Under the pieces are notes generated by a model. The model worked only from the letters and a program-made list of their open reading frames with translations, did not search any database and was not told the DNA's origin. A stretch of 64,000 nt of DNA from Hermatobates lingyangjiaoensis (taxonomy: Eukaryota; Arthropoda; Insecta; Hemiptera; Hermatobatidae), in the NCBI GenBank assembly GCA_026182355.1, contig JAPFBL010000069.1, positions 186,001 through 250,000 of the forward strand, written 5' to 3'. Of this stretch, positions 253 through 64,000 are shown piece by piece (positions within the stretch are counted from its first letter, which is position 1; the number at the start of each line of letters is the position of its first letter). Both the position numbers and the translations under genes were made by a program.

Positions 253-293
253 TGCCTATGAAAAAGGTTTTAAATAAAACCGAAACGTTGGCA
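253..293 (+). ncRNA. Hammerhead-like core, PLE family 1 (variant core)
   Basis: Stem I TGCC/GGCA closes the motif perfectly. Stem II pairs GGTTTT with AAAACC. GAA follows, then the self-complementary ACGT, then T at the cleavage position. The catalytic strand reads TATGAAAA instead of CTGANGA, so catalysis is doubtful although all three helices can form. Related copies lie at about 603-645 (-), 1096-1133 (+), 60709-60750 (+) and 63800-63840 (-). The 63800-63840 copy keeps the TGCC/GGCA stem and ACGT with C at the cleavage position. Confidence 0.55.
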
Positions 294-451
294 ACGAGAG
301 TTTGATTTTTTATCCTGGAAAATTGACCGAACCCCGATTAAAGAACACACCTATTCTATCAAACGGTTGATATATTATTAAATATATTGATACATTCAAT
401 ATGTATTGAATATTATTGAATATGTCGATATATTATTATATATATATAAAG

Positions 452-603
452 ATTTCACATAAACACATGAATAACAATCAAAGATCAAACCACAATAAGA
501 AATGAAAAAACAAGTCTAAGATCTTTCAACCGTAACAAGCGGTCTTCATCAGAGTCAAAAACCCAACTGACACGAGTTTCTCAAAAACCCAACTCTCAAT
601 GCA
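452..603 (-). mobile_element. PLE end, AGATCT family, single arm
   Basis: One arm of the most abundant repeat in the window. From the outside in it carries a TTTCACATAAACAC-like end, a CAAACCACAATAAGAAA block, AAGATCTTTCAACCGTAAC, and the CAGAGTCAAAAACCCAAC block. Read on the minus strand, this contains the hammerhead-like core at about 514-557. It borders a (TA)n run on its left. Confidence 0.7.
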
Positions 604-1226
604 AATGTTTCGGTTTTTATTTAAAACCTTTTTCATAGATAGAAGTATAAATTTTGAAACACAAAAACTAAGTAGTATATTTCAAATTATTTTACAAAGA
701 AAATAGTCTGTGAATTTCAACAACTCTAGTTTTAATGAATACGTGACACTGTATATATAATATATATACGTGTGTTTGTGTGACTGTGTGTATTGTGCAA
801 TCGGGATTCGATCAATTTTCTAGGTTCAAAATGTCCTTTGAGTGAACAGTGTTGCCGTTTACTTGTACTATCATCTAGTCCAAAGGTTTGAATAATTTTT
901 TTGGTCTTGATTCTTAGATCTTTTATATAATGCAGATTTCATTTTCTAATCAGTAAAATTCTGACTGCTGTAAGTTATTTTTATTAATCTTTCAATTATT
1001 TCTACTTTTAATGTTCCACAAGCTGTAATAATCCAGTTTCATATTGTTTATTCATTGATGCTTGTATTTGATATTTATTATTATTTTTTTGCAGGCCTAT
1101 AAAAAAGGTTTTAAAATAAAACCAAAATGTCGGTAATGAGAGTTTCATTTTGAACTTGGAAAATTGACCGAATCCTGATTGAATAATACACTTATTCTTT
1201 CAAACGGTTGATATATTATTGAATTT

Positions 1227-1259
<33 letters not shown>

Positions 1260-1261
1260 AA

Positions 1262-1480
1262 AAGATTTCACATAAACACGTGAAACAACAATCAATGATC
1301 AAACCACAATAAGAAATGGGAAAACAAGACTAAGATCTTTCAACCGTAACAAGCGGTCTTCGTCAGAGCCAAAAACCCAACGTTTTTTGGGTCAGTTGGG
1401 TTTTTGACTCTGACGAAGACCGCTTGATACGGTTGAAAGATCTTAGTCTTGTTTTCCCATTTCTTATTGTGGTTTGCACA
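1262..1480. mobile_element. Fold-back pair of PLE ends, AGATCT family
   Basis: Two inverted copies of the AGATCT-family end meet near 1385, so the transcript could fold into a long hairpin. The outer sides run into (TA)n at 1236-1258 and 1478-1498. The right arm has a hammerhead-like core at 1406-1448: stem I GACT/AGTC, CTGACGA, stem II ACCG/CGGT, GAA, then AGATCT and T. Confidence 0.8.
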
Positions 1481-1540
1481 TATATATATATATATATACA
1501 CATATGCATATAATGCATAATGCATATCATATGCATATAT

Positions 1541-1609
1541 AATCTTGAAGAGGCATTCATATGCCTCCTTGGGGCTCGTTCTCCTCCTGGTCTCAACCTG
1601 TACCGTTAA
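1541..1609 (+). pseudogene. PLE GIY-YIG endonuclease C-terminus
   Basis: The plus frame reads LEEAFICLLGARSPPGLNLY followed by R and a stop. This matches the last residues of the longer endonuclease fragment ending at 4324 (EEALISLLGGRSAPGLNL). It is only the extreme C-terminal end of a Penelope-like endonuclease. A (TTA)n run and the element's 3' untranslated region follow, and then the hammerhead-like core at 1834-1874, so the whole 3' end of one PLE copy is represented. Confidence 0.75.
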
Positions 1610-1627
1610 TTATTTTTTATTTTATTA

Positions 1628-1628
<1 letters not shown>

Positions 1629-1674
<46 letters not shown>

Positions 1675-1690
1675 TATTTTTTATTATTAT
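1629..1690. repeat. (TTA)n microsatellite
   Basis: About 15 uninterrupted TTA units lie in the 3' untranslated region of a PLE fragment. The inverted relative of this fragment at 9240-9278 has the matching (ATA)n, so the microsatellite belongs to the element. Confidence 0.9.
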
Positions 1691-1833
1691 TATTTCGTAT
1701 TTTATATATTTTTTTTCTTGTTTTCTAAATAAATATGGGAGGGATTTCTATGTTTCCTCTCCTCCGCTGGGGAGCAGCATTGCAATGGGTCCACGAGGCC
1801 AGTAGCAGTTTGCTTCTCAACGCGAGTACTTCG

Positions 1834-1874
1834 CACTTCTTCCCGATGACGACGGATGTCGAAATATCGAAGTG
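1834..1874 (+). ncRNA. Hammerhead-like core, ATAT family
   Basis: Stem I is CTTC/GAAG, or CACTTC/GAAGTG with a bulge. The catalytic strand is CCGATGA (U4 changed). Stem II pairs GAC with GTC. GAA is followed by the palindrome ATAT and then C. Inverted copies with the same parts lie at 6236-6276 (-) and 9018-9058 (-). The motif lies downstream of the endonuclease end at 1541-1609, as expected for a PLE pseudo-LTR. Confidence 0.65.
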
Positions 1875-1915
1875 AGTTCTGTAGTGTCTTTCTGTGTCCT
1901 TTTCTATGTGTTAAA

Positions 1916-1957
<42 letters not shown>

Positions 1958-1962
<5 letters not shown>

Positions 1963-2443: not shown

Positions 2444-2485
2444 AAACTTGATGATGGTCTTTTGAAGGACCGAAACATGTCGTTT
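2444..2485 (+). ncRNA. Hammerhead-like core, ACATGT family
   Basis: Stem I is AAAC/GTTT. The catalytic strand is TTGATGA (C3 to U). Stem II pairs GGTC with GACC. GAA is followed by the 6-nt palindrome ACATGT and C at the cleavage position. It is a single copy in this window, lying just past (TA)n at 2381-2423. Confidence 0.65.
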
Positions 2486-2691: not shown

Positions 2692-2918
2692 ATGATCAAA
2701 CCACAATAAGAAAATGGGAAAACAAGACAATGATCTTTCAACTGTAACAAGCGGTCTTCGTCAGAGTCAAAAACCCAACAAAACTCAGTTGGGTTTTTGA
2801 CTCTGACGAAGACCGCTTGTTACGGTTGAAAGATCTTAGTTTTGTTTTCCCATTTTCTAATTGTAATTTGATCATTGATTGTTATTTCATGTGTTTATGG
2901 GCAATCTTTTTATACATA
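2692..2918. mobile_element. Fold-back pair of PLE ends, AGATCT family
   Basis: Two inverted arms of the AGATCT-family end meet near 2783 (CAACAAAACTCAGTTG). Each has the CTGACGA, ACCG/CGGT and GAA core. The left arm reads ATGATCTTT in place of AAGATCTTT and so has a broken palindrome, while the right arm keeps AGATCT. (TA)n flanks both sides. Confidence 0.8.
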
Positions 2919-3464
2919 CATATATATATATATATATATATTTAGTTATATATATATAGTTATATATATATATAACTTGACATATCATTCTTTGTTTAAA
3001 ACAATATCTGTTGACTACTTAGGATAATATATATGTTTTAATTTCATAATGAACACATACAATAAGAATGTAATAATATTAAAGGAGCTTTTTAAGCTTC
3101 AACGTAGCTACTTTGTGTACTAGAATACTGGCACTAAGGGGAATGTACAACCCGTCCTTCTAAGTAGGTTTGGCTATGCCTAAGGTCTCCCAGTGGTTAA
3201 CCCTCCACTTGACTTGTTCTGGTGCTCCGATGAAGCATGCTCAAGCCAAACACTTACTAACCAAACGAGACAAACATAAGGTTTATTAACAAGAGGTATG
3301 CTTCTAAAGGCATTTACTATCATCCAAGGTGAAGACAATATAGCTTAATTACAATTTTTATAGTATGTACAAATAAAAGAACGGAATCTATATATATATA
3401 TATTTCGCGCTCCGTTCTTCGACGTGGGGAGATCTCTCTCACTTCGTCCTCTCTACTAGTCTAC

Positions 3465-3500
3465 TCTCCTGATGACGAACAACAGTTCGAAATATTGATT
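3465..3500 (+). ncRNA. Hammerhead-like core, second ATAT family
   Basis: CTGATGA is intact at 3469-3475. Stem II pairs GAAC with GTTC around AACA. GAA is followed by the palindrome ATAT and U. Stem I is weak here (two pairs), so activity is uncertain. A (TA)n run begins about 60 bp downstream. Confidence 0.6.
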
Positions 3501-3582: not shown

Positions 3583-3815
3583 ATAATCAAACCCCAATAA
3601 GAAAATGAGAAAACAAGACTAAGATTTTCCAACCGTAACAAGCAGTCTTCGTCAGAGTCAAAAACCCAACTGTCAGTTGGGTTTTTGACTCTGAGTTGGG
3701 TTTTTGACTCTGACGAAGACCGATTGTTACGGTTGAAAGATCATAGTCTTGTTTTCCCATTTTCGTATTGTGGTTTGATCATTAATTGTTATTTCACGTC
3801 TTTATGTGATTTTTT
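3583..3815. mobile_element. Fold-back pair of PLE ends, AGATCT family
   Basis: Inverted arms with a short internal duplication of the TTGGGTTTTTGACTCTGA segment near 3677-3713, so the centre is not simply palindromic. The left arm carries AAGATTTTC and the right arm AAGATCATAG, so both stem III palindromes are mutated. (TA)n lies on both sides. Confidence 0.75.
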
Positions 3816-4324
3816 TTAGATATATATATATATATATATATATTGCTAATATTCAATCTATCTTCTCTCACATCTCTTCTCCTAAGCCTCCAAAAACTGC
3901 TGGTGGTATGGTTCAATGTGGGCGTCGTGGATGTCTTACTTGTCCTATCATCAATCCTGTTCCTTCCTTTACCTCTGTCCATAGTAAACGCACCTACCCT
4001 ATCTCTCACAAGACCTCTTGTACCTCTGGTAACTGCGTTTACCGTTTGGATTGCACCCAGTGTCATTCTTTTTATGTGGGTTTGGCTTCCACCAAGCTAA
4101 GCCTGCGTATGAATAATCACAGGTCATCCGTTAGCAAACGCAGTGACCTTCCCGTTGCTACTCATGCCAGTTCTCACGGACTCAGTTTTAATGACTGTTT
4201 CCGTGTACAGGTCCTGAGGCAGATTGATCAGACTAATTCGAAAGTTACTCTGAGAGCTTCAGAAGAAGCACTTATTAGTCTTCTGGGTGGTAGATCGGCT
4301 CCTGGGCTTAACCTGAATCGTTGA
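3806..4324 (+). pseudogene. PLE GIY-YIG endonuclease domain, 5'-truncated
   Basis: This is the longest PLE coding piece in the window. After a TA-encoded leader the frame reads about 150 residues to a stop. A cysteine cluster CGRRGCLTC comes first, followed by SCTSGNCVYRLDCTQC and HSFYVGLASTKLSLRMNNHR, the GIY-YIG core (Y..YVG, then R...HR). The C-terminus is EEALISLLGGRSAPGLNL. This order (CxxC linker, endonuclease core, SE-type C-terminal helix) is that of the endonuclease of Neptune/Poseidon-type Penelope-like elements, which nicks target DNA for integration. The reverse transcriptase is missing because the piece starts at (TA)n at 3820-3842. The frame is intact, but there is no start of its own, so I treat it as a truncated copy. 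Confidence 0.85.
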
Positions 4325-6059: not shown

Positions 6060-6307
6060 CTACCTTTCCTCCGAAAGTTGGGAGGAGAGTTGAGATAGGG
6101 ACACCAAGTGCACTTGCGAAGCGACGGTTGGAGACGTTTGTGTTCCTTTTGGATCGTTATTATGTTAACAATATATATATATATATATATATACTTTAAC
6201 ACATAGAAAAGAACACAGAAAGACACTACAGAACTCACTTCGATATTTCGACATCCGTCGTCATCGGGAAGAAGTGCGAAGTACTCGCGTTGAGAAGCAA
6301 ACTGCTA

Positions 6308-8366: not shown

Positions 8367-8393
<27 letters not shown>

Positions 8394-8396
<3 letters not shown>

Positions 8397-8893
8397 AATT
8401 TGATGGCAGATTCTGCATTCACGATTTTCTTACTTATAGCTTCTATTTTCCTTACAATTATCTTTTGTGAAGGTGATAATTGCCAAAGCAAACTAGCATA
8501 CGACATTCAGGAGGCTGGAAATAACCACTTCACTGGGGGTAACTATATTCAATTAAACACTACACTAGATTAAACTAAGATAACAAGCTTTCGGCCCCAT
8601 GGGTCATCATCAGGTTCTTAAACTACTTAATATGTATACATATTTAGTTAATATAAGTAGTTTAAGAACCTGATGATGACCCATGGGGCCGAAAGCTTGT
8701 TATCTTAGTTTAATCTAGTGTAGTTTTTAATTAAATATAGTTATCCCCAGTGAAGTGGTTATTTCCAGCCTTCTGAATGTCGTATGCTAGTTTGCTTTGG
8801 CAATTATCACCTTCTCAAAAGAAAATTGTAAGGAAAATAGAAGCTATAAGTAAGAAAATCGTGAATGCAGAATCTGCCATCAAATTCAATAAT
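8394..8893. mobile_element. Fold-back pair of PLE ends, AGCT family, with N-terminal coding arms
   Basis: Inverted arms of about 230 bp (8394-8622 and 8659-8893) meet around a short spacer. Each arm has a hammerhead-like core near the centre (8573-8622 minus, 8662-8707 plus). In the plus copy stem I is AAC/GTT with further pairs after a bulge, CTGATGA is intact, stem II has a CCCATGGG centre, and GAA is followed by AGCT and T. Towards the outside each arm encodes the PLE N-terminal region. (TA)n flanks both ends (8367-8392, 8929-8974). Confidence 0.8.
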
Positions 8894-8927
8894 ACATTCT
8901 TGAAAGAGGACTTACTGCCGAAATACA

Positions 8928-8979: not shown

Positions 8980-9350
8980 AACACATAGAAAAGAAAACAG
9001 AAAGACACTACAGAACTCACTTCGATATTTCGACATCCGTCGTCATCGGGAAGAAGTGCGAAGTATTCGCGTTGAGAAGCAAACTGCTACTGGCCACCAG
9101 AGTAACTCGTGGAACCACCGCAATGCTGCTCCCCAGCGGAGGAGAGGAAAAATAGAAATCCCTCCAATATTTATTTAGAAAACAAGATCAAAAATATATA
9201 AAAAAAAATATATATATAAAATACGAAATAATAAAAAATAAATAATAATAATAAAATAATAATAATAATAATAATAAAAATTAACGGTACAGGTTGAGAC
9301 CAGGAGGAGAACGAGCCCCAAGGAGGCATATGAATGCCTCTTCGGAAGCT
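8980..9350 (-). pseudogene. PLE 3' end: endonuclease C-terminus, 3' region and hammerhead-like core
   Basis: On the minus strand 9350-9283 encodes SEEAFICLLGARSPPGLNLY, R and a stop. An (ATA)n run follows, then a 3' region and the ATAT-family core at 9018-9058. It is near-identical in order and sequence to 1541-1890 on the plus strand. Confidence 0.75.
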
Positions 9351-9354
9351 CTAT

Positions 9355-9925
9355 TAAATTAGACGGCAGCTTCCGCATTTACAACTTTTTTGCTCGTTTT
9401 CTCTAGTTTTCTTACTAGTTTTTTCTGGTAGGGAGTGATTTCATGGAGGAGTTGTCCCAGAGACATCAAAGAAATAATCTTTTAGCTTAATCAATAGTAT
9501 TATATTTTTACACTTACAAGCTTTCGATTTTCTCAGAAATCATCTTCAGGTATATATCATTATTAAACAGATTAAATTCACACAATAAAATTGTCACAGT
9601 GGACTTGTTTTGTTTTTTCACAAAGTTCATCTAGTTCTATTAACATCTAAATTTTTATTCCTTTTAATGTCTGTTTAACATTTGAAAAATTTTATTGTGT
9701 GAATTTAATCTGTTTAATAATGATATATACCTGAAGATGATTTCTGAGAAAATCGAAAGCTTGTAAGTGTAAAAATATAATATTATTGATTAAGCTAAAA
9801 GATTATTTCTTTGATGTCTCTGGGACAACTCCTCCATGAAATCACTCCCTACCAGAAAAAACTAGTAAGAAAACTAGAGAAAATGAGCAAAAAAGTCGTA
9901 AATGCGGAAGCTGCCGTCTACTTTA
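9355..9925. mobile_element. Fold-back pair of PLE ends, second AGCT family
   Basis: Arms 9355-9592 and 9690-9925 are inverted copies. The plus arm has a core at 9728-9765: TAC/GTA stem I, CTGAAGA, stem II GATTT/AAATC, GAA, AGCT, T. The minus arm has the same at 9516-9553. Outside the cores both arms encode LHEITPYQKKLVRKLEK and VVNAEAAV, the PLE N-terminal region. The plus copy runs FNKIYIY into (TA)n at 9932-9947. The minus copy is joined directly to an endonuclease C-terminus at 9350. Confidence 0.8.
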
Positions 9926-9949
9926 ATAAAATATATATATATATATAGT

Positions 9950-10940: not shown

Positions 10941-11670
10941 AATTAAATGATGCTGAAATGTATACTGAATTCTGGGGTTTCTGCCTTGGTATTAACCCAC
11001 TGCTTTAGTGATAACTAGTGCAGTAAATTTTGCTTTAAAATGGCTAATTTAATTTATTTTATACCTACGGATGCTGACTACATATGCCGACTTATGTCCC
11101 GTGGTACCTACCTTAGTATTTATCTGTTTCTCTAATCATAACTAGTCCAATGGATTTTCTTTGAAGTGTATAACATAATTTGATTATTTCATACCCACGG
11201 ATGCTGATAAGTATACTAAGTGTCTGGTACCTACCTTGGTATTTATCTGTTTCTCTAATCATAGCTAGCCCATTGGATTTACTGTGAAATATGGAACTTA
11301 ATTTCAATACTTGATACCCACGGATGCTGATAAGTATACTAAGTGTCTGGTACCTACCTTGGTATTTATCTGTTTCTCTAATCATAGCTAGCCCATTGGA
11401 TTTACTGTGAAATATGGAACTTAATTTCAATACTTGATACCCACGGATGCTGATAAGTATGCTAAGTGTCTGGTATCTACCTTGGTATTATCCGTTGCTC
11501 TAATCATAACTAGTCCAATGGATTTGCTTTGAAGTATATAACATAATTTCAATATTTCATACCCACAGATGCTGTAAGTATGATAAGTCCCTAGTACCTG
11601 CTCTTGTATTTATCCGTTCCTGTTATGATAACTAGTCCACTGGATTTTACTGTGAAACATATAATTATGT
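10941..11670. repeat. Tandem array, 123-bp unit, about 6 copies
   Basis: The word ATACCCACGGATGCTG starts at 11191, 11314, 11437 and, slightly changed, at 11061 and 11559, giving a period of 123 (122-130 at the edges). The central two units are nearly identical and the outer ones decay. Because 123 is a multiple of three, the array has an open frame on the minus strand, which I regard as a by-product. Confidence 0.9.
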
Positions 11671-15479: not shown

Positions 15480-16025
15480 AACATAAAACTTCTCGCGATA
15501 TCGGTTATTCCAGGTTTTCAAACTTCGTTCGTTTCATACACTAAGCTAACACTGTGGCTGAACTTTTTAAGGGTTATCTCAACTGAAGCTTAACTCTTTA
15601 ATCCGACAGTTCGAAAATTGATATTTCTAGCTTCAACCCTACAAGAAAAAATATGATATGGTTTACCAAAAATATATTTTTTTTGGTTAACTATAATAGA
15701 TTACACTAACACTACAGTTTTTAAGAGTTATCTCCTCTGAAACTCAAGTCTTTAATCTGACATTTCGAAAATTTAATTTTTTTCATTTTCAAAGCTAGAA
15801 GAAAAAATATAGTATACAGTATAGTATAGTTAACCAAATATATAATATATTTCGTTAACTATATTATATAAAACATTTCTTATGAAACAATGAAAATGAA
15901 AATATAAATTTTTGAAACGTCGTTTCGTAAAAAGTTCTATTTCTATCCAAATAACGAGCAAAAATTCCAGGAATATTGGTTACATAGGGTGTAAAACTTT
16001 TACTAGTGCACAATACGAAATGTGT
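15480..16025 (+). mobile_element. Old PLE-like end with tandem halves and variant hammerhead-like core
   Basis: Two diverged copies of a roughly 153-bp block start near 15569 and 15723 (rGGGTTATCTC-type words, then CATTTCGAAAATT). At 15882-15928 a motif has stem I ATGAAAC/GTTTCGT (seven pairs, one wobble), stem II AAAAT/ATTTT, GAA, the palindrome ACGT and C. Its core strand is AATGAAAA. The tail (ggaatattggttacat, then tactagtgcacaata) is also found, diverged, at 55935-56000. Confidence 0.5.
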
Positions 16026-18285: not shown

Positions 18286-18830
18286 AGTATGTTAGTTTTA
18301 TATAAATGTTTGCATGCATTCTATCTCTATTTTGTTTAATTTAGAACAATCTTTTGTTAGGAAAAATATGTTCATTAAATCATTAGTTGTGCAGTCCGTA
18401 ATTGTGTGGTATTTACTCATCCTGAGGTAAAATCGATAAACAAACAAAAGTCTCCATACAAATAAAGTTTTATTCAATAGCAACACCGCGTTTCGAACAC
18501 TTTGTGTTCATCATCAGGAAGACAACACATTCCGTCAGGATGTGGTGCTGACGGGTTGGTCCAGTGAAAACAACATATTGTTGTGTGTAAAAACAACAGG
18601 TTGTTTTTACACACAACAATATGTTGTTTTCACTGGACCAACCCGTCAGCACCACATCCTTGGTGTCTTCCTGATGATGAACACAAAGTGTTCGAAACGC
18701 GGTGTTGCTGTTGAATAAAACTTCATTTGTGTGGAGACTTTTGTTTGTTTATCTATTTTACATCAGAATGTTCATTAAAATAACAAATAGAATTAATTAA
18801 GAGATTTTTGAAAATTTAGAACAAAATCAA
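18286..18830. mobile_element. hAT-like fragment interrupted by a fold-back
   Basis: 18300-18360 and 18780-18810 together match 17170-17250 (CTCTATTTTGTTTAATTTAG, then ATAACAAATAGAATT). The match is split by the 388-bp fold-back at 18380-18767. This shows the fold-back is the younger insertion. Confidence 0.7.
18380..18767. mobile_element. Fold-back PLE element with 12-bp target duplication
   Basis: The 12 bases ATGTTCATTAAA stand at both borders (18368-18379 and 18768-18779). Inside are two inverted arms meeting at about 18597. Each has the core CTGATGA, stem II GAACAC/GTGTTC around AAA, and GAAAC (18481-18522 minus, 18662-18710 plus). The word after GAA is ACGCGG rather than a perfect palindrome, so stem III is broken by one base. 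It carries no coding sequence. The double-ended duplication means the inverted pair inserted as one unit. Confidence 0.85.
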
Positions 18831-21342: not shown

Positions 21343-22261
21343 TTAAAAGTCAATAAATTCTTTAATGTAGGTATCTTTGGAGCTGATAATGTGGTTTCCT
21401 TCATCGTACTGATCAAAATTACTGACGTCACCTAATCCTTTGATCTTGGGGGTGAATGGGGGTTCAACTTGTTTATTAAGAATGGCAAGCCAGTTGCTCT
21501 CTTGGAAGAACCTGTGGTCTTTTATGTCGTTGACTCCTCTCTTGAGGTTTCCATACCGCATTGTGAGATCTGTTTGGATAAGCTTCTTAATGATGTCCTT
21601 AAGAGAGTCAGACAGGTTTTTAGGCATACTATATTTACCACTGACTATCTTTTCATAGATCTTGATAGGTTCGTTGGAATAAAAAGGAGGATAACCGGCA
21701 GCCATTTCATATAAAAGAATGCCAAAGCTCCACCAGTCTGCAGAGAAGCCATAGCCACGATTTAAAATAATTTCAGGTGCCAAATATTCCGGTGTACCGC
21801 AAAGTGTATATGTTCGACCTCTTAAAACTTTACAAAATCCAAAATCAGTTATTTTTATATAGCCGTCACGATCAATTAGAATGTTTTCTGGTTTTAAATC
21901 CCTATAGATAAGATCTAAAAAGTGTAAATATTCAAAACTTAGCAATACCTGCGACCCATAGAACCGAACAAGGGCTTCAGAGAATTTACCAAATCTTCTC
22001 AAGTATGTAAACATTTCTCCCCCTTGTATAAAAGGCAGTACAAAGTACAAGTAGGAGTTATCTTTAAAGAAGTAATCCATATGTACCGTAAAAGGAAACG
22101 AAACTGACTGCAAAATTCGTTTTTCATTTAAAGTGTGATCAATTTGCTTCGTCTGAACTATCTTTTCTTTTTCCAAAATCTTGATTGCAACAAAAGAATT
22201 ATCTGCCTTATTTTTGGCTGCAATGACTCTTCCAAAAGAACCTGTGCCTATCGTTCTCAAC
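21343..22261 (-). CDS. PKA-C: Protein kinase A catalytic subunit, kinase-domain exon
   Basis: This exon encodes residues 59-363 and the stop of a cAMP-dependent protein kinase catalytic subunit, the cytosolic and nuclear serine/threonine kinase held inactive by regulatory subunits. Visible landmarks (numbered in the two-exon model) are the glycine loop GTGSFGRV (63-70), VAIK lysine 85, NEKRIL glutamate 104, YRDLKPEN with catalytic Asp179, DFGF Asp197, activation loop [16 protein letters not shown] with Thr210, ADWW, and [11 protein letters not shown]. The C-terminal tail ends EFIDF, the FxxF motif that docks on the small lobe. Each landmark is 13 residues beyond the mammalian number, so there are no internal gaps. 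The 5' border is a splice acceptor (tttgttaacag before 22261). A start at 22296 would read intron sequence. The frame is intact with no stops. Confidence 0.95.
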
Positions 22262-22451
22262 CTGTTAACAAAATTAATACTAGTTCTAACAAACATTAAA
22301 CATTTACTGCAGAAAATATTTATTTTTCAATTATTTTACATTGTGAACAACTGCTTTCAGGTATCATCAATTTAATCCTTATTTTAAATTAATTTAACAT
22401 ATTTTTATTAATTTTAAAACTTTGTGCGGTTATTCAGTATTTAAAACTAAT

Positions 22452-22493: not shown

Positions 22494-22893
22494 GATTTCA
22501 CATAAACACGTGAAATAACAATCAATGATCAAACCACAATAAGAAAATGAGAAAACAAGACTAAGATCTTTCAACCGTAACAAGCGGTCTTCGTCAGAGT
22601 CACAAACCCAACTGAGGGGTTTTTGACTCTGACGAAGACCGCTTGTTACGGTTGAAAGATCTTAGTCTTGTTTTCCCATTTTCTTATTGTGGTTTGATCA
22701 TATATACATGTATATATATCAATGATCAAACCACAATATGAAATAGGAAAACAAGACTAAGATCTTTTCGTCAGAGTCACAAACCCAACTGTTTGAGTTT
22801 TTGGGTCAGTTAGGTTTTTGACTCTGACGAGACTGCTTGTTACGGTTGAAAGATCTTTGTCTTGTTTTCCCATTTCTTATTGTGGTTTGATCA
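22493..22893. mobile_element. Two adjacent fold-back PLE ends, AGATCT family
   Basis: The first (22493-22700) has full inverted arms with AAGATCTTTCAACCGTAAC and its complement and opens beside (TA)n at 22457-22492. The second (22725-22893) has a deletion in its left arm, which lacks the stem II segment, so only its right arm (about 22815-22860) keeps most of the core (CTGACGA, GACTGC..., GGTTGAAAGATCT). Confidence 0.8.
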
Positions 22894-22907
22894 TATATGT
22901 ATATATA

Positions 22908-23115
22908 TATCAACATCTAAACCGCAGTAAGAGAATCAGAAAAATGATTATGATCTTTCAACCAAAACAAGTTGTCTTCTTCAGAGTTTAACTGATACTC
23001 TATGATACTAACTATGTAGTGATCAGTGTCAGTGAGACTCTAATGAAAATCAGTTGTTTTAGTTGAATGTTCTTACTCATTTTTCTGTTCCTCTTGGCGT
23101 GATTTATATCTTATT
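22908..23115. mobile_element. Old fold-back related to the AGATCT family
   Basis: Diverged arms (gatctttcaaccaaaacaag, then cttgttttggttgaa-like sequence) lie around an unrelated centre. Similar old copies lie at 25620-25810, 37800-37900, 44830-44930, 54480-54560 and 62578-62765. They show this family has been active over a long time. Confidence 0.6.
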
Positions 23116-30479: not shown

Positions 30480-31480
30480 AAAAACAACAAAATCAGTGTT
30501 TTCCATTCATTGTTTCAAATATTTTAAAACTTAACAATACGCAAATTCTATTATTATTATTCGTTTTTTTCATTTAACCTCATGGAATAAAAATTTAAAT
30601 ACTTCTATATATTTCTTCCTTCTAACTGGGACTTAATAATTTACAAAGTGCAGGACAGTTTTTAAAAATCATTGAAAAGCAAAAAAATATGTATAGCAGT
30701 GTTTTTATCATTTATTTGTATTAATTCTCAGAATATTGTGTCATATAGCCTTTGAGTTGACTTAACCATCTATTTATTTTGTCTGGATTTTTTTTACTAT
30801 TTAATGATATATTTTATCATTCTTTGAATGTATTTTTCAAGAGTGCCAGTTATATCGGATTTGCGACAAGTTTGTCATTAAATATCTGACTAAAGTATGT
30901 TTCTGGTGAAATATGAATAACGACTCAGAGTTGGTCACCTCTCGGTTTTTGTTTTATTTCCAGTACACTTCAAAGAGCATGGTAAATATGGGAAAGTCAT
31001 ATCCCTCAGTAGGTAAATAACAGATTTAAAGCACAACTCTAAATTAAGCCTTAAATTCATATCTTTCTTTTGTCGTGAACATTTTTTTTATTGCAATTTT
31101 ATCAAGTAAAAAAAAAGAGTTTGCCAAAATAAACAGGTTTTTTTTTAAACTGAAAAGTAATATTTAAAAAAAAATTCTATTTCATCGAATGAATTGAACT
31201 CTTGGATTGTTAAAAAAAAAATCTTCTTTCGTTGACAATTTATTCACATGTCTCTATTGTGAAATTCCTTTTTCATTACGTCACTATCTAATGAAAGTAA
31301 AATATTATTTTGTTTTAATATTGGCTTTATTTATGCAAATAATTATTTCATTTCATTTTTTTCATAATTTACATCCGATATATATAACAGTATAATATTT
31401 TGATAGAAATTTACAAATTTTGTATTACATATAAAATTGCAAAGTATTCGTATTTGAAAATGCGTTTACATACTTTCTCG
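30480..31480. other. Non-coding AT-rich stretch upstream of the kinase exon
   Basis: It could contain the kinase promoter if the ATG at 30444 is the true start. I see no TATA box or CpG-rich patch I would call. Confidence 0.4.
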
Positions 31481-31489
31481 GTATAACGT

Positions 31490-33825: not shown

Positions 33826-34095
33826 CAATGATCAAACCACAATAAGAAAATGGGAAAACAAGACTAAGATCTTTCAACCGTATCAAGCGGTCTTCGTCAG
33901 AGTCAAAAACCCAACTGAACACTAGATGCAGAAAACATCTGGTGAGGAGTTTCTGCATCTAGTGTTCAGTTGGGTTTTTGACTCTGACGAAGACCGCTTG
34001 TTACGGTTAAAAGATCTTAGTCTTGTTTTCCCATTTTCTTATTGTGGTTTGATCATTGATTGTTATTTCACGTGTTTTTGTGAAATCTTTTTATC
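33826..34095. mobile_element. Fold-back pair of PLE ends, AGATCT family, with preserved centre
   Basis: Full inverted arms lie around a centre 'ctagatgcagaaaacatctg' that is itself inverted. The right arm contains CTGACGA, ACCG/CGGT (GGTTA) and GAT-like changes, the left arm the complement of GGTTGAAAGATCTTAGTC. The outer right end shows the full family end (gattgttatttcacgtgttt). Confidence 0.8.
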
Positions 34096-45027: not shown

Positions 45028-45063
<36 letters not shown>

Positions 45064-45665
45064 AACTAACAAGTTTTAACTATAACAAACAAATTAACAT
45101 TACATACAAATTATATACGACGTTTCGGTCAGCTCTGACCATCTTCAGGCACTAATAACAATTCATAACAGAACTCAAATACAAAAATAAGAACTATCTA
45201 AATTATTAACACAATTATTAACATCCTAACAGAATAAGAAATATTTACATGAATTGAGTGGGAGGTTATACAGGTTATAGCAACCCTGAGGACCGTTATA
45301 ACCTGTATAACCTCCCACTCAATTCATGTAAATATTTCTTATTCTGTTAGGATGCTATTAATTAAAAGTACTAACGAATTTGACAAATTCGTTAGTACTT
45401 TTAATTAATAGCAACCCTGAGGACCGTTATAACCTGTATAACCTCCCACTCAATTCATGTAAATATTTCTTATTCTGTTAGGATGTTAATAATTGTGTTA
45501 ATAATTTAGATAGTTCTTATTTTTGTATTTGAGTTCTGTTATGAATTGTTATTAGTGCCTGAAGATGGTCAGAGCTGACCGAAACGTCGTATATAATTTG
45601 TATGTAATGTTAATTTGTTTGTTATAGTTAAAACTTGTTAGTTAATAAAATGGAAGTCAAGAATA
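45064..45665. mobile_element. Fold-back PLE element, ACGT family, with nested palindromes
   Basis: The outer arms are inverted copies. Cores lie at 45115-45152 (minus) and 45555-45592 (plus): stem I GTGC/GTAT, CTGAAGA, stem II GGTCA/TGACC, GAA, ACGT, C. The centre contains a second inversion (about 45250-45345) and a third, short perfect palindrome (about 45355-45410). The left side starts at (TA)n 45028-45063. Confidence 0.8.
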
Positions 45666-46891: not shown

Positions 46892-46999
46892 TCTGCAGCT
46901 GTTCTCCAGTTGGGCTCCCCCACTCCCCTTACCCCCACTACTTGCCTGCTTTCCCTTCCCTATGCCTTTTGCGTCCTGGATCTCCTAGGAACAACTTCG

Positions 47000-47037
47000 C
47001 CCGTCGATGACATCTGTGATGTCGAAAGCTTGCGCAC
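47000..47037 (+). ncRNA. Hammerhead-like core, right copy
   Basis: Same architecture as 46491-46530 on the opposite strand. It sits downstream of an endonuclease C-terminus, as the other PLE cores do. Confidence 0.5.
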
Positions 47038-47739: not shown

Positions 47740-47905
47740 ATATATATTATTAAAAGTAGCAGCAACTTATGCTTTCACGATTTTTAAGCTGGTGGCCTCG
47801 ATCTTGCGGACGATTCTTCTATCTTGTGGTTAGAGCTTCCACATCAATTATCTAAGGGACATCAATTCATACGAGCTATCGACCATAATTACGTTGGTCA
47901 TCGTC
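47740..47905 (-). pseudogene. PLE pseudo-LTR core and N-terminal fragment
   Basis: On the minus strand 47905-47866 carries a decayed core (CGATGACCAACG, then GGTC, GATAGCTC with AGCT and C). It is followed by RRIVRKIEATSLKIVKA, a stop, then VAATFNNIYI into (TA)n. This N-terminal region belongs to a copy lying just downstream of the endonuclease at 48084-48420, i.e. a tandem PLE junction. Confidence 0.65.
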
Positions 47906-48083
47906 GGGTAAAATCTTCTTCTGGAAGGATGCTTATATAAACTTCCTTAGTGGATGTGATTTTTGATTGGTTCAATAAACTTGCCTTATTGGTCAATCAG
48001 AGTACAGGTTTCAGTTTTCGTTCTTATTCCATTTCATTTTAGGCTCTATGTTCTTGTTTGTTGGAATAACGAACATTTTTCAC

Positions 48084-48420
48084 CTAAGGATTAATTGAGG
48101 GGTTTCTTTCTTTAATGTGTAAATCCTCTAAAATATGCAGTTTATCAACATTTACCTCTCGTTGGATAATACTAGTACACCTTACACAAGCATTTCTCTG
48201 GTTAACTGGACATTGTGCTTTTCCTGGGCATGTGTCTTTGGAGCTCCAGCAGCCAAATGAAAGGTTAATCTCCTGGAGAGCTTTGTTGTAGTCAACCCGA
48301 TGTACTTTGAGGGCAGGTTCTTACCTGTAGTACAAGTATACTTGTACACCAAGTGACTACTTTGAAGCTCCTGGGTATTTTTCTTTGGACTGTTTCTTAA
48401 CAAGTTAAGAAACTGTTAAG
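48084..48420 (-). pseudogene. PLE GIY-YIG endonuclease, Penelope type, frameshifted
   Basis: The minus frame reads HLVYKYTCTTGKNLPSKYIG, then LTTTKLSRRLTFHLAAGAPK and TH. This is the GIY-YIG core (YKYTC..., YIG, T...LSRRL..HL..GAP). After a one-base shift near 48180 it continues CTSIIQREVNVDKLHILEDL then HIKERNPSIN and a stop, the Penelope-type C-terminus. The endonuclease is a different type from that at 3806-4324, so at least two PLE lineages are present. It is inactive because of the frameshift and lack of a reverse transcriptase. Confidence 0.8.
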
Positions 48421-53379: not shown

Positions 53380-54420
53380 TACATAAAGAACATAGAGAAA
53401 TTGAAAACACACACATACAGTCTCTAATTTTCGGTTGAACCGTCTTCAGGGGAGATAAGAGAGGGAAACCAAGCGGACTGGTACAGAGACGGTTGGAGAC
53501 CAACAATGTTGCCACATACAGGTCGGGTCACAGAGAATAATGTAGACAAGAATCAATTTAAATTAAAATAGGAATATGAAAATTAATAGTAAACACAAAA
53601 ACAAATAAAATAATAAAAAATAAAAACTGAGAGATGAACAGAAGATATGATACATAAATAAATAAAATAATATTAAAAATTATGGACTAAGCTTTAATAA
53701 AAAATGGAGAATAAAAATTAAAATAAATTAAATAAATGAAAAATATAAAAGATGAAAACATAAAAACTAGATGCAGAGACAAGAAACTAATACAATGAAG
53801 CTTTATCTCTTAAGATTAAGGCCAGGTGCACTGCGCGCATTGAGCAACCAAATATGGGCTCTTTCGGAAGCTCGGAGAGTGAGGTTTTTGCAGTCAGAGG
53901 GGAATTGTCGTAGAATCTGTAACCTGGAACCTGCAAAAACCTCACCCTCCGAGCCTCCGAAGAAGCCCATATTTGGTTGCTCAATGAGTGCAGTTCACCT
54001 GGTCTTAATCTTAAGAGTTAAAGCTTCATTGTATTAGTTTCTTGTCTCTGCATCTAGTTTTTATGTTTTCATCTTATATATTTTTCGTTTATTTAAGTTT
54101 TATTCTCTATTTTTTATTAAAGCTTAGTTCATAATTCTTAATTTTATTTTATTTATTTATGTAAATTTAATTTGTTTATTAATTTATTTGTTTTTGTGTT
54201 TACTATTATTTTTCATATTCCTATTTTAATTTAAATTGATTCTTGTCTACCTTATTCTCTGTGACCGGGCGCGTATGTGGCAACAATGTTGGTCTCCAAC
54301 CGTTTCAGTACCAGTGCACTTGGTTTCCCTTCTTTATGTCTCCTGAAGACGGTTCAACCGAAAATTAGAGACTGTAAGTTTGTGTTTTTAATTTCTCTAT
54401 GTTTCTTTATGTACATTGAA
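53380..54420. mobile_element. Fold-back PLE element, AATT family, with two endonuclease tails
   Basis: The arms are inverted around about 53905. Cores lie at the outer sides (53420-53455 minus, 54338-54372 plus). In the plus copy stem I GTCTC/GAGAC is perfect, CTGAAGA intact, stem II a short GGT/ACC, GAA, then AATT and A. At the centre each arm encodes an endonuclease C-terminus: SERAHIWLLNARSAPGLNLK, R, stop (minus, about 53868-53808) and SEEAHIWLLNECSSPGLNLK, S, stop (plus, about 53955-54020). Confidence 0.8.
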
Positions 54421-55860: not shown

Positions 55861-55869
55861 TCTTGTAGT

Positions 55870-56000
55870 CTTGATAATGAAAATGTAAAATTTCGAAACG
55901 TTGGAATACAGAGTTGAGTCTTTTGACCAGATACCCCTCAAAGAGACCAGCAACATTGGTTATGTAGTGTATTAAACCTCTACTAGTCCACAATAGGAGA
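55870..56000 (+). mobile_element. Old PLE-like end
   Basis: TGATAATGAAAATGTAAAAT then TTCGAAACGTTGG has a possible stem II (GAAAT/ATTTC-like), GAA, ACGT and T, but the core strand is altered and stem I absent. The following 'ggttatgtagtgtattaaac' is shared with 15970-16010. Confidence 0.4.
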
Positions 56001-56399: not shown

Positions 56400-56440
56400 G
56401 AATCGATATTTCGAACTGAAGTTCGTCGTCAGAGAGAGAG
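56400..56440 (-). ncRNA. Hammerhead-like core, ATAT family 2
   Basis: On the minus strand CTGACGA is intact, stem II GAACT/AGTTC has loop TC, GAA is followed by ATAT and C. Stem I is not convincing. The core word GACGAAC..GTTCGAAATAT resembles that at 3469-3496. Confidence 0.55.
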
Positions 56441-58344: not shown

Positions 58345-58725
58345 AGTACTATACACCACTTAAACTCGAGTAACCACACACCTTTTAATCAAGAGTAACC
58401 ACACTCTACTTAAACTTGAGTAACTCATCACCTAAGCTCTAATAACTGCAACGACTTATACCCGAGTAACTATACACTACCTAAACTTGAGTAACTGAAC
58501 ATCACGTATACTCGAGTAATCGTACACGACTTAAACCCGAATAACTATACACTACTTAAACTTGAGTAACTGCACACCTCTTAAACTTGAGTAATCGTTC
58601 AAGACTTAAACCCGATTAACTATACACTACTTAAGCTTTAGTAACTAAACACCACTTAAACTCGAGTAACTACTTAGCATGTAAACTGGAATAACTGCAA
58701 ACCACTTAAACCTTAGTAATTACCT
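58345..58725. repeat. 25-bp satellite-like array, about 15 copies
   Basis: The unit is roughly TAAACTYGAGTAACTACACAC plus four bases. Copies are diverged by a few bases each but keep a strict 25-bp spacing. The core CTCGAGTAA or CTTGAGTAA recurs in most units, with an alternate CCCGAATAA. No coding frame. Confidence 0.85.
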
Positions 58726-58729
58726 TGGT

Positions 58730-60108: not shown

Positions 60109-60459
60109 CATATATATAATAACTTCTAACAAAGAATACATATACAAGTGCCAATTCACTTTTTTATTTCAATGCGTTGATATGACATATATATAGTAAA
60201 CCATACTATCCACTTGAGCAAAGACTGAAGCCTTTTAATCAAGAAGCATTTTATCAGTGTTGCCATCTTGGGAGAGGATACAAGAAAAAAATTAAATAAA
60301 TAACGACAAAATTAAGAAATAAAGTAAAATATAAAAATGTGTTATAAAATTTGAATTTGTTTAAACATAATTACCTGATTAATGGAAAAGTGTAATAAAA
60401 AAAAACTGGAAAAGCTACACAGGAAAAGAGTGAGAAAAGAAATAGGTAAACAATTTAAT

Positions 60460-60780
60460 ATTTAAAACCTTTTTCATATGCAGAATTATACAATTTTGAA
60501 ACAGAAAAACTAACCATTACATTAAAAATTTTTACAAGAAAAATTTCTGTGAATTTTAACAACTGTCTAGTTTGAATGAACACTGACGTTTGAACAATGT
60601 CACGTGTTCATTCAAACTGGATAGTTGCTGCTAAAATCCAGAGACTATTTTTCTTTTAAAAAATCTTTAATGAAGTATGTAGTTTTTCTGTTTCAAAATT
60701 TTATACTTCTGCTTATGAAAAAGGTTTTAAATAAAAACTGAATCGTTGGCAATGAGAGTTTAATTTGAACCTGAAGAACT
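60460..60780. mobile_element. Fold-back of PLE family 1
   Basis: Inverted arms (aaaacctttttcatatgcag and ctgcttatgaaaaaggtttt) meet near 60600. The right arm's core is decayed at GAA (aaactgaatcg). Same family as 253-293. Confidence 0.7.
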
Positions 60781-60846
60781 GACTGAGTCCTGATAAACTT
60801 TAATTTTGTTTACATGTAGATATATATTTTTTGACTACTACGTACA

Positions 60847-61255
60847 GTTGGGTTTTTGACTCTGACGAAGACCGCTTGTTACGGTTGAAAGATATTAGTC
60901 TTGTTTTCCCATTTCTTATTGTGGTTTGATCATTGATTGTTGTTTCACGTGTTTATGTGAAATCTTTATATATATATATATATATAAATAAAAAGATTTC
61001 ACATAAACACGTGAAACAACAATCAATGATTAAACCACAATAAGAATGGGAAAACAAGACTAAGATCTTTCAACCGTAACAAGCGGTCTTCGTCAGAGTC
61101 AAAAACCCAACTATAGTCAGACTATGGTCTATATAGCGGTCTATAGTCAGACCCAAAAACCCAACAGTTGGGTTTTTGACTCTGACGAAGACCGCTTGTT
61201 ACGGTTGAAAGATCTTAGTCTTGTTTTCCCATTCTTATTGTGGTTTAATCATTGA
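60847..61255. mobile_element. One and a half AGATCT-family fold-backs
   Basis: A lone right arm (60847-60968) is followed by (TA)n and a full inverted pair (60985-61255) with an odd spacer (gactatggtctatatagcgg) at its centre. The best core is at 61178-61220: GACT/AGTC stem I, CTGACGA, GACCG/CGGTT stem II, GAA, AGATCT, T. In the lone arm the palindrome reads AGATAT. Confidence 0.85.
61178..61220 (+). ncRNA. Hammerhead-like core, AGATCT family (representative)
   Basis: Stem I GACT/AGTC is perfect. CTGACGA meets the CUGANGA consensus. Stem II GACCG/CGGTT contains one G-T pair and one extra A precedes it. GAA is followed by the palindrome AGATCT and T at the cleavage position. The same arrangement is repeated in most copies of this family in the window. 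Confidence 0.65.
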
Positions 61256-61715
61256 TATATATATATAATCTTTTGTATAGTGGTGCTCAGGTTTGATTTT
61301 AACTATGAAAAGTATCTTTTAGAAGAGATTTCTCATAAGAATTAGGAGAACCTATGAGCTAAAAGCTCCATATTACCTTTATAATAGAAATAAAAAGAAA
61401 AAAATCTAAAGCATTTGGTATTTAGTTAAACCAATTCTTAAGGAAGTATGTTTTTGTCTGTAGTAAAAGCATTAAAACCTGAAGCATTTTAATAAATTTT
61501 AATAATGCGACATTTCTTTAGGATCCGTCGCTTTGTAGAGAATATAATTAAAAAAAATTGTATGAAAAAAATACTTGTTAGTACATTAATTAACAAGTCT
61601 GTTTGCTTATTTTTATTCCCCGGTATCAGATTCAAATTGGCCATTTTCTGTGCATTTCATTTAAATTGGTAGTAAAGCAGAGTTTTAAAATGCTAAACTC
61701 TAGATAATTTATTAC

Positions 61716-61759
61716 CTTCAACAGTTATCTCTGGTATCCAGTTTGCAAATTTTTCTTCA
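61716..61759 (-). CDS. Candidate internal exon of an unidentified gene
   Basis: 44 nt between a strong acceptor (thirteen T, then AG) and a GTAATA donor. The frame reads EEKFANWIPEITVE. Its 3' end leaves one base, which the exon at 41257-41337 completes to glycine, giving EITVEGILQLLSVPLEDAQ across the junction. It is not in phase with 62142-62223, so if both are real an exon is missing between them. Confidence 0.4.
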
Positions 61760-62141
61760 CTAAAAAAAAAAAAATAACTAAAATTTAATAAAGAATAAAT
61801 TGTAATTTTTTTTAGCACTCAAAAATTCCAAAGAAAAATTCAACCCTGTTTTATAATTTTATATTATGATAAAATATGATTCAGTTTAGTAATGAGATCG
61901 CTATGAAGAATTGTGTTTTAGATATTTTGTGCAATGAAAAATTAAGTTTTACTTAATAAAACCGTTGTAATTGTTTTGTTATCTGTCACAAATACTTAGA
62001 TTTTATAAGAAAAAAATACCACAAAAGTAGTAGTACCTCAAAAATGAGATTTGGGCATTTTTTGTCATGTTCAAATGTTTACTTATATCTAATAAATATT
62101 TATTAGAGGTCTTGTATTCATTTCGTTTTACACTAAAGTAC

Positions 62142-62223
62142 CTCGTGGGATAATATTTGCAATAAAAATTCTGCGACTCATGTTTGGCTCTCCATGATCT
62201 CTCCAAACAGTTATGATTTCACT
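62142..62223 (-). CDS. Candidate internal exon of an unidentified gene
   Basis: 82 nt after a good acceptor (tttcaagtttccag) and before GTACTT. The frame reads SEIITVWRDHGEPNMSRR then IFIANIIPR. It starts in phase 0 and leaves one base. Not recognised; it could belong to the same gene as 61716-61759 or to another. Confidence 0.4.
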
Positions 62224-62577
62224 CTGGAAACTTGAAATCTTTAATTAATTCTTATGTAATTTGACAAAAATTCCCTTAATTTTTTCGTGGTGAGTTGTTT
62301 TGAGATTACGAGTATGTTTCATAATATTTTCCTCGGGTGTTTGAAAATGATTATAATACTTTTATAAATGGTTTGTGATGGATTTACTCATCAAATAAAA
62401 AGGTAGGATGGTATGTTCCAAAGTTTTATCTATTCATTTTTATTTAAAGCAATTATCTTAAAGAAAAACTGACATCATGAACTGAAACCCCTGAGCGGGA
62501 GTTTCCAACATGATCTGCTCATAGAGGTCATAAAAAATATAAACATTTTGGGGGTCCATGCAAAATCTACATGCACA

Positions 62578-62765
62578 TATACAACAAGATTTCAGAAATG
62601 AATTCTTAAAATATAAATCAACATCTACCAGTAAGAAAATCAGAAAAATGGCTAAGAATTTTCAACCAAATCAATTGGCCTTCGAGATGCAAGTCAGACT
62701 CTGATGAAGACCAATTGTTTTGTTTGAAAGGTCTGATTTTCTTACCGTGGTTTAATTGTTGATAC
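62578..62765. mobile_element. Old fold-back related to the AGATCT family
   Basis: Arms read gaattttcaaccaaatcaat and, inverted, tgatgaagaccaattgtttt then gtttgaaaggtctgat. The core words CTGATGA and GAAAGGTCT are still visible. Confidence 0.6.
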
Positions 62766-63080
62766 ATATATGTACCATTATTGTATACCTAAAGTGAAGA
62801 TATTGATAAATAATTGTTGGCTAACGTAGTCACCTAGCCGTTAAACTATCAGAGCATTGGAATTAACACTTAATCGAAGTTCTAAGGTATTACAATCAGT
62901 TATTGTGCGATATTTACTAATTGTAGGGCCAAAAGCTAATAAAATAGTATCTACATGAGTTTTGTTTAATGAGTTCAATAAATGAAGTGAGTTCAACAAC
63001 GGAATGTTCTCATTTATGAGTTTATGACTGCTCTAGGGCAATGTAAAAAAGTTAATGGGTTAGTTCCACTGAGGTTAGTA

Positions 63081-63299
63081 ATATTAGAATTAGTAATAAT
63101 ACAATCCGTCATACCCCGTAAAGTCTCAGAAAAGCTCGACCGGTTTCGGGTCCGTCTGAATCCCATCTTCAAGAGCACCTAACTGACTGTCCAGTCAGTT
63201 AGGTGCTCTTGAAGATGGGATTCAGACGGACCCGAAACCGGTCGAGCTTTTCTGAGACTTTACGGGGTATGACGGATTGTATTATTACTAATTCTAATA
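63081..63299. mobile_element. Fold-back PLE element, ACCGGT family
   Basis: An almost perfect 219-bp inverted repeat. Each arm has a core (63134-63176 minus, 63205-63247 plus): stem I GCTC/GAGC, TTGAAGA, stem II GGG/CCC, GAA, the palindrome ACCGGT, and C. No coding sequence. Arms appear nearly identical, so the insertion is young. Confidence 0.8.
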
Positions 63300-63389
63300 G
63301 TGTATAAAAGGTTCTACCTTCACCCTTCAAAACTTAACTTTCAACAGGCACAGCCCTATCCCTATCGCCTGTCCATGATTGCAGATTTA

Positions 63390-63426
63390 CCTGAACAAGT
63401 ACAATACATGTTCGAAACGTATTATT
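63390..63426 (+). ncRNA. Possible hammerhead-like core
   Basis: CCTGAACAAGTAC, then ATGTTC, GAA, ACGT and A. The catalytic strand is CTGAACA and the stems are poor. Kept because GAA-ACGT-A fits the pattern of the other families. Confidence 0.3.
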
Positions 63427-63699
63427 TAACTCATTAAACATCTGTATTTGTTTACAAATATTTATTACAGCTTTTTACTCTGTAATGAAGCGAAATGTTC
63501 CATTCATTTTTCAGTGTGAACTGATGAAATTGTACATCGCTCTTTTTTAACGGTATAAAGAATTTGATCTTTTTTACAATTTATTTTCACACAGTTTGTA
63601 AAATGATAATAAGTAATATCTTCTTATAGTTTAAACAATTTTATTTGTACTTGAATTTCATATCACGAATATAAAGAAATTGTTTAATTGTAGATGTAT

Positions 63700-64000
63700 A
63701 TATAACAGATTCAATGATATATCGACCGTTTGATAGAATACGTGTATTATCTAATCGGGATTCGCTCAAATTTTCTTGGTTTAAAAATCAAACTCTCATT
63801 GCCGACGTTTCGGTTTTATTTTAAAACCTTTTCATAGGCAGAAACAAGAATTTTTTTACTAAGAAAATGAAATTTACAAATTTTGAAAGGAAGAACAGTC
63901 TAAACCGGACAAAACCTTCGACTAGAGTCGGTTTGCACCGTGAATTTATATATATATATTATATAATTATATTATATTACTGAATTATATATATAATATT
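63700..64000 (-). mobile_element. PLE end, family 1, at the window edge
   Basis: On the minus strand the core at 63800-63840 has TGCC/GGCA, GGTTTT/AAAACC, GAA, ACGT and C. The element continues to a (TA)n-rich end. The same end is seen at 225-440 in the opposite direction. Confidence 0.7.

Follow-up and report, generated by a model that had tools for sequence, protein, structure and literature searches.

Why Penelope-like elements (PLEs) carry hammerhead ribozymes has been called a mystery (PMC7761336), and elements with mutated hammerheads still insert in vitro (PMC11167929). A 64,000-nucleotide stretch of the Hermatobates lingyangjiaoensis genome (GenBank assembly GCA_026182355.1, contig JAPFBL010000069.1, positions 186,001 to 250,000; hereafter the window) raises the question anew: it holds about ten differently coded families of small hammerhead-like sites, a natural experiment in which one can ask whether dimerisation is lineage-specific, whether insertions come from cleaved RNA and how head-to-head copies originate. 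The window is AT-rich (31% G+C), with abundant repeats, many of them inverted. We read the sites, at a probability of roughly 0.7, as minimal type I hammerheads in the terminal repeats of PLEs (pseudo-long terminal repeats, pLTRs) and in one further family, A, with a stem III formed from a short palindrome between two RNA copies and with cutting of transcripts to unit length.

The sites far exceed chance expectation. A relaxed descriptor (core CUGANGA with at most one change, zero or one extra nucleotide, stem II, GAA, a palindrome beginning with A and ending with T, then A, C or T), applied to both strands, found 28 sites against a mean of 0.65 in 40 first-order shuffles; a strict version, which adds a stem I of at least 3 bp and GAAA, found 19 against a mean of 0.05 in 20 second-order shuffles. 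When 179 permuted cores were run on the real window with its repeats in place, the mean was 0.095 and the maximum 6, the latter for TCGANGA, one change away from the CCGATGA variant that occurs here. Substituting seven other triplets for GAA gave 0 or 1 site. Viral contigs searched with two exact patterns gave no match to either.

We sorted the sites into ten families, A to J. Family A (AGATCT-T, stem I GACT/AGTC) is represented at 61178–61220 (+) with a head-to-head partner at 61058–61100 (−), at 22625–22667 (+) with a head-to-head partner at 22559–22601 (−), and at 1406–1448 (+), 2799–2841 (+) and 33862–33904 (−). Family B (ATAT-C) occurs at 1839–1872 (+), 6238–6271 (−) and 9020–9053 (−), and family C (ATAT-T) at 3465–3500 (+). 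Inverted or head-to-head pairs make up family D (AATT-A, stem I GTCTC/GAGAC; 54338–54372, +, and 53421–53453, −, the latter with a decayed stem I), family E (AGCT-T; 9728–9765, +, and 9515–9552, −), family F (ACGT-C; 45555–45592, +, and 45115–45152, −), family G (AGCT-T; 8666–8702, +, with one A·C mismatch in stem II, and 8581–8617, −) and family I (ACCGGT-C; 63205–63247, +, and 63134–63176, −). Family H (ACATGT-C) lies at 2444–2485 (+) and family J (ATAT-C) at 56401–56436 (−). One additional site, M (47869–47911, −), has AGCT-C and GAT in place of GAA. The exact core is present in seven of the ten families, with a single change in B (CCGATGA), H (TTGATGA) and I (TTGAAGA). An extra nucleotide follows A9 in all ten families and in all 19 strict sites; in canonical hammerhead spacing, stem II joins A9 directly. 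The sites without it (22824, 27605 and 62701) are all three divergent copies of family A.

The original prediction had listed ten sites. Eight of them (those beginning at 1834, 2444, 8662, 9728, 45555, 54338, 61178 and 63205) do have the core (or one change from it), stem II, GAA and the palindrome followed by A, C or T, and their stem I is 3 bp or longer. At 3465–3500, core and palindrome were borne out but stem I has only 2 contiguous pairs. The tenth, 253–293 (+), still has both stems (I and II) together with GAA and ACGT, whereas TATGAAAA stands in place of the core strand; we set it apart as family K and do not count it as a hammerhead. The figure of at least ten families is thereby right only with family J substituted for this site, and stem I is weak in both C and J. 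Also kept out of the families is the pair at 18484/18667, where the core is intact (covariance model score 3.8e-4) but the palindrome is missing and G occupies H17; it belongs to an inverted repeat at 18418–18770 with CTGATGA, a long stem II and GAA.

A scan for the exact core, stem II and GAA, in which neither palindrome nor stem I was demanded, returned 28 sites, and in 21 of them a palindrome directly follows GAA. Of the seven others, four are decayed copies of family A, one is the related site 62701 and two form the pair 18517/18671. Counted by family, the typical copy has the palindrome in six of the seven families found in this way (P = 5e-5 at a background of 0.142 per GAAA site), that pair being the sole exception. 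Families B, G, H and I stand outside this count because of a core change or mismatch; they likewise carry palindromes, with B, H and I coming from scans that required one. The palindrome is found directly after GAA, at a fixed register, in all ten families A to J (several from scans demanding it). Each of the four 4-nt palindromes that can begin with A and end with T is present (ATAT, AATT, ACGT and AGCT).

All three paired elements, stems I and II and the palindrome, covary from family to family, in agreement with the original prediction. Across eight families, 69 of 72 cells are paired against a shuffle mean of 46.9 (none of 5000 shuffles as high), with 17 further pair types against 12.5 (88 of 5000 as high), figures that are partly biased because the stems were a detection requirement. 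In alignment A3 (six families, MAFFT), 86.8% of cells are paired and the covariation score is 0.60 against 0.21, neither reached in 500 shuffles; two measures counting pairs and types were matched by 24 and, for types, 49 of 500. Sliding this alignment by 1–3 columns lowers pairing to 10–42%. An earlier alignment of nine, A2, was poor and was not used. A covariance model built from the six families of A3, with stem III set as unpaired, recovered the held-out sites of family D (E = 1.7e-5 and 5.5e-5), site M (2.2e-4) and family H (0.009).

Most of the families lie where PLE hammerheads would be expected. We searched window-derived peptides back against the window by tblastn. Of 12 PLE N-terminal matches, seven are preceded on the same strand, at 45–112 nt, by a hammerhead core: those with Met at 9814 and 9466 (−) in family E, at 8777 and 8506 (−) in G, at 2560 in H (weak, E = 0.02) and at 47862 at site M, together with N-terminal coding from about 45662 in F. 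Likewise, a same-strand hammerhead follows within 360 nt of six of eight endonuclease C-terminal matches: two before family B (at 1606, about 240 nt from the site at 1839–1872, and at about 9285, on the strand of the site at 9020–9053), two before D (54012 and 53806), one before M (48090) and a fragment ending at 3387 before C. At site M, an endonuclease stop near 48085 is followed by about 170 nt with a TATA-like sequence, by the hammerhead (47911–47869) and by the Met, a layout that makes M a tandem junction, at which cleavage would yield unit-length RNA. A TATA box near the expected distance was found only there, at one of 12 sites inspected.

Domain matches agree with this assignment. A PLE-type reverse transcriptase (RT) fragment at 1990–2283 (−) matches three nameless database proteins (E = 2e-15 to 3e-12; three of five candidates), one of which exceeds the Pfam RVT_1 cut-off. 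A PLE-type GIY-YIG endonuclease with its C-terminus occupies 48087–48415 (−), its domain at 48185–48415 scoring E = 1.3e-4 and 22.6 of 22.6 bits, i.e., at the Pfam cut-off, and the C-terminal part of another lies downstream of family C at 3875–4321 (+), with a weak domain match over 3779–4321 (E = 0.04, under the cut-off). None of 15 candidates scored in the GIY-YIG protein search. RT and GIY-YIG are present as separate fragments only, with no intact element in the window. To judge from the RT and GIY-YIG combination plus motifs taken to be typical of such elements, the hosts look like PLEs, and the claim that these are minimal hammerheads in PLE-like elements fits the same-strand PLE-type coding that most families adjoin. 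The sequence A9-U-G is present in E, F, G, H, I and M. As an ORF start, this AUG was rejected in E, F, G and H, where its frame stops after 3–20 codons and a PLE-like Met lies 83–112 nt downstream of the core; in I the frame stays open for about 30 codons, and no PLE-like peptide was seen there. Around one PLE-type endonuclease C-terminus runs a 636-nt inverted repeat (45894–46529/46999–47634, 100% complementary), which reflects either a recent rearrangement of tail-to-tail type or an effect of the assembly.

In the mechanism we propose, the sites would belong to the pLTRs of several PLE lineages and to non-coding family A, which resembles a non-autonomous PLE derivative. The 4–6 nt palindrome would replace stem III, with two RNAs each supplying one half of a stem that a single RNA could not form, and stem I would then likewise be formed between two copies. 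In a tandem transcript the ribozyme would sit at the unit junction, and cleavage after H17 would release unit-length RNA. The partner would most likely be a neighbouring copy in the same transcript or ribonucleoprotein and not an RNA that diffuses freely, since a 4-nt stem by itself is too weak. Dimerisation, cleavage and unit-length processing are the steps that we infer; the motifs and their register, the covariation, the neighbouring coding sequence and the inverted copies are shown by the sequence itself.

Many sites occur as head-to-head copies. Fifteen of the 19 strict sites are in such pairs (families A, D, E, F and I), the three B sites and H being unpaired, and core-to-core distances are 14–112 nt in nine listed family A pairs and 36–893 nt in D, E, F, G and I. 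Both hammerheads of a pair are enclosed in inverted repeats at 63082–63299 (I), 8386–8897 (G), 9352–9928 (E), 45060–45647 (F) and 53389–54403 (D). A read-through transcript is predicted to fold back onto the antisense arm, pairing 43 of 43, 43 of 43 and 41 of 43 ribozyme bases in I and two A copies, 37 of 37 in G and 38 of 38 in E; such RNA would sequester the ribozyme and thereby switch it off. Because the elements form inverted repeats, some of whose junctions hold short palindromes, and palindromes at inverted junctions are described in PMC3846280, the stem III palindromes might themselves have arisen at the DNA level, as inverted-repeat by-products or element target sites. We regard this as very improbable: each arm has its palindrome in its interior, between GAA and A/C/T and some tens of nucleotides away from the junction, and the junction sequences are separate from it.

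The family A arms may carry a trace of how they were copied. In ribozyme orientation, segments matched by BLAST, setting aside matches to other copies inside the query, mostly start near −15, upstream of the ribozyme. Starts within or after the motif fall at 1, 2, 26, 27, 40, 40, 51 and 92 (one of those at 40, at 38501, resembles a divergent full copy), and no BLAST-matched family A segment starts at the cleavage site, position 36. The template of family A copies was therefore probably uncleaved at the hammerhead site, in agreement with the in vitro finding of PMC11167929. In all 11 testable family A pairs (1236–61256), one arm is short and the other has about 30 nt more. This count comes from a repeat-free probe adopted after the result of a first probe, whose TA repeat had lowered the count to nine of 11. 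The core positions 43394, 41645 and 38541 were extrapolated for truncated or divergent arms, and the pairs do not include the nested copies at 22700–22990, both sides of which seem short, or other unpaired copies. The outer ends of the arms take two positions, often running into (TA)n, and by eye a TTTCAC..GTGAAA hairpin is seen in the longer arm. Such asymmetry fits both the PLE 'tail' on one inverted pLTR described in PMC3846280 and the two starts of reverse transcription, primed on both strands of the target, described in PMC11167929. We infer that each insertion used each start once, with two cDNAs meeting head to head. Two close direct pairs occur in family A, 22629/22824 (195 nt) and 60862/61182 (320 nt); otherwise the family is head-to-head.

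Several lines of evidence weigh against intermolecular hammerheads in PLE pLTRs, the first of them energetic. A double hammerhead has its stem III and its two stems I paired between strands. For eight families (A, B and D to I), the computed gain of this structure over two monomers is −10.9 (I), −7.2 (H) and −2.6 (A) kcal/mol with 6-nt palindromes, and −1.3 (E), −1.3 (G), −1.1 (F), +2.2 (B) and +2.4 (D) kcal/mol with 4-nt palindromes. The expectation that these sites should cleave as dimers thus finds energetic backing for ACCGGT and ACATGT (clearly) and AGATCT (slightly), but for the 4-nt families, five of the eight, the calculation shows a small advantage at most. In all eight, co-folding has a minimum other than the double hammerhead, and the single strand one other than the monomer hammerhead. 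Because nearest-neighbour energies leave out tertiary contacts, they do not disprove dimers. A short palindrome by itself does not predict free dimers, and on these calculations the 4-nt families probably need tethered partners.

These energies would also suit ribozymes that work as slow monomers, or, in the 6-nt families, with a single A-U pair over a tetraloop, the palindrome being a by-product of a minimal stem III. A 6-nt palindrome does leave a 4-nt loop under an A-U pair. However, a stem III that does not serve a dimer requires only A15.1 and U16.1, and the inner bases would be free; they are complementary in six of the seven families found without demanding a palindrome (background 0.14), and the inner pair varies between families (GC, TA, AT and CG). 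We therefore consider monomers an unlikely explanation.

A second set of objections concerns detection. Rfam hammerhead models, which are built for an ordinary stem III and lack the extra nucleotide, matched nothing in the window up to E = 1 and, in two short rescanned stretches, nothing up to E = 10. Activity may in addition be reduced by the nucleotide inserted after A9. Our own covariance model gives the family A copies E values of 0.02–3 and family I 0.24, equalled by some unrelated sites, and it gives 0.004–0.007 to a site at 46997–47035 (+), which was rejected as a hammerhead because it is antisense to the endonuclease coding sequence 'AFDITDVIDG'.

The third set bears on the hosts. Hammerheads are missing from the expected place at five of the 12 N-terminal matches (45897, −; 47611, +; 2029, −; 2263, +; 60388, +) and at two of the eight endonuclease matches (4321 and 46657), and no coding link for families A, I and J was found in the window. 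The PLE label of the window peptides comes in part from motifs that we take to be diagnostic, and the matching proteins are nameless. In family K, a CTGANGA-like core is found in none of the six aligned segments (253–293, 60692–60797, 63695–63926 (−), 1095–1328, 583–658 (−) and 60459–60500 (−)), all still present in the window; several copies keep the stems, as if amplified without an active ribozyme. In the Anolis system of PMC11167929, hammerhead mutants left insertion in vitro unaffected, and RNA-seq did not reveal ends at the cleavage site.

On such grounds the sites could be vestigial, ribozyme sequence carried along in dead PLE copies, with the stems serving RNA binding by PLE protein or nothing at all. 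The fragmentary state of the window copies (three stop-to-stop frames of at least 150 aa in all), the stems kept in family K after loss of the core, and the dispensability of hammerhead activity for insertion in vitro (PMC11167929) speak for this reading, which we nevertheless find quite unlikely. Among 26 family A copies, the core (0.09) and GAA (0.05) are among the least variable parts, against 0.20–0.51 in the flanks, and the ribozyme differs in variability from the adjacent downstream sequence at p = 0.02, in a set of copies that was partly selected by motif; complete and differing stems are also kept in eight families. On balance we retain dimeric hammerheads in PLE pLTRs and family A as the preferred reading.

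If the ribozymes do act between copies, palindrome and stem I together might form an address private to each lineage. By pair counting, all eight homotypic combinations reach a complete stem III plus at least 3 bp in both stems I, against none of the 28 heterotypic ones. Only RNAs of the same element would then complete a ribozyme, which would act, much like a retroviral dimer signal, as a self-recognition device that counts or pairs the RNAs of one lineage. We offer this extension tentatively and hold it to be doubtful.

In families B, C and D such an address might further be coupled to a choice between splicing and cleavage, by a GTRAGT 5′ splice donor at the 3′ edge of the ribozyme. Families B, C, D and E each have a GTRAGT in the 16 nt that follow H17; at a background of 0.0046 per such window, four of ten families have a probability of 9e-8 (post hoc), representing at most two independent cases since B, C and D look related. 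The hexamers, all on the plus strand, lie at 1872 (B, GTGAGT overlapping the 3′ edge), 3504 (C, GTAAGT just downstream), 54374 (D, GTAAGT just downstream), 9763 (E) and 23553 (a relative of D). Among nine aligned lineage loci the hexamer is present in six, at another offset at 14979, and absent in three. From sequence, these are possible splice donors. An intron in family E was rejected, no frame-keeping acceptor being seen by eye. A literature search that left most subscription papers outside found no account of a splice-donor neighbourhood of PLE hammerheads.

Other features of the window include an uninterrupted 327-aa frame at 21346–22326 (−) of the protein kinase A (PKA) catalytic subunit type, possibly a retrocopy. 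Animal proteins are among its relatives, and the best-scoring among the 8000 closest candidates is from Ixodes (63% over 83%). Tandem repeats occupy 31403–32431 (81 bp), 58348–58729 (25 bp) and 11102–11611 (about 123 bp). Rfam rows named for miRNAs are all under the gathering threshold, several of them on inverted repeats.

How do these sites compare with known systems? The legend of Fig. S8 in PMC3088659 proposes a dimeric conformation for hammerheads with a palindromic stem III. The repeat-type hammerheads of that report share with the window sites a self-complementary stem III for a dimer; there, however, stem and loop III pair together (a 10-bp stem in Aedes), whereas here a 4–6 nt palindrome without a loop takes their place. 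The same paper describes U3-A8 in place of C3-G8, and this compensated core change, U3 together with A8, is also seen at two similar window sites (55867–55906, +, and 15755–15796, −). Closest in kind are the small PLE hammerheads of Cervera and de la Pena (2014) and the dimeric cleavage of small variants reported by Lunse, Weinberg and Breaker (2017), both as cited in PMC6466107, PMC7761336 and PMC8490949. Minimal type I architecture, a near-absent stem III, location in PLE pLTRs and expected dimeric cleavage are shared; the window differs in holding ten families within 64 kb, each with its own palindrome and stem I, mostly head-to-head. The extra nucleotide after A9 in all ten families may be a further difference.

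In Poseidon PAc of Anolis carolinensis (PMC11167929), the hammerhead lies at the pLTR/ORF junction, as in the window, and cleaves in vitro, a single C3G or G8C mutation abolishing cleavage. Two nearby internal reverse-transcription starts give rise to its 'tail', and its targets are AT-rich; family A shows two arm ends and (TA)n. The PAc ORF is said to start at stem II, whereas in families E to H the A9 AUG frame soon stops and the Met lies downstream. Penelope of Adineta vaga (PMC3846280) has head-to-head inverted pLTRs with an optional one-sided tail, as seen here; its main text makes no mention of hammerheads (the word 'ribozyme' does not occur in it), whereas the window copies combine hammerheads with an asymmetry that all 11 testable pairs of family A show. 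Animal retrozymes (PMC7761336) likewise have a type I hammerhead with a weak helix III in non-coding repeats, but as direct repeats of about 150–300 bp, to which the direct pairs 22629/22824 and 60862/61182 are the nearest in a mainly head-to-head family A. A palindromic stem III and dimeric cleavage of PLE hammerheads are already in print, and the families described here are further members of that kind.

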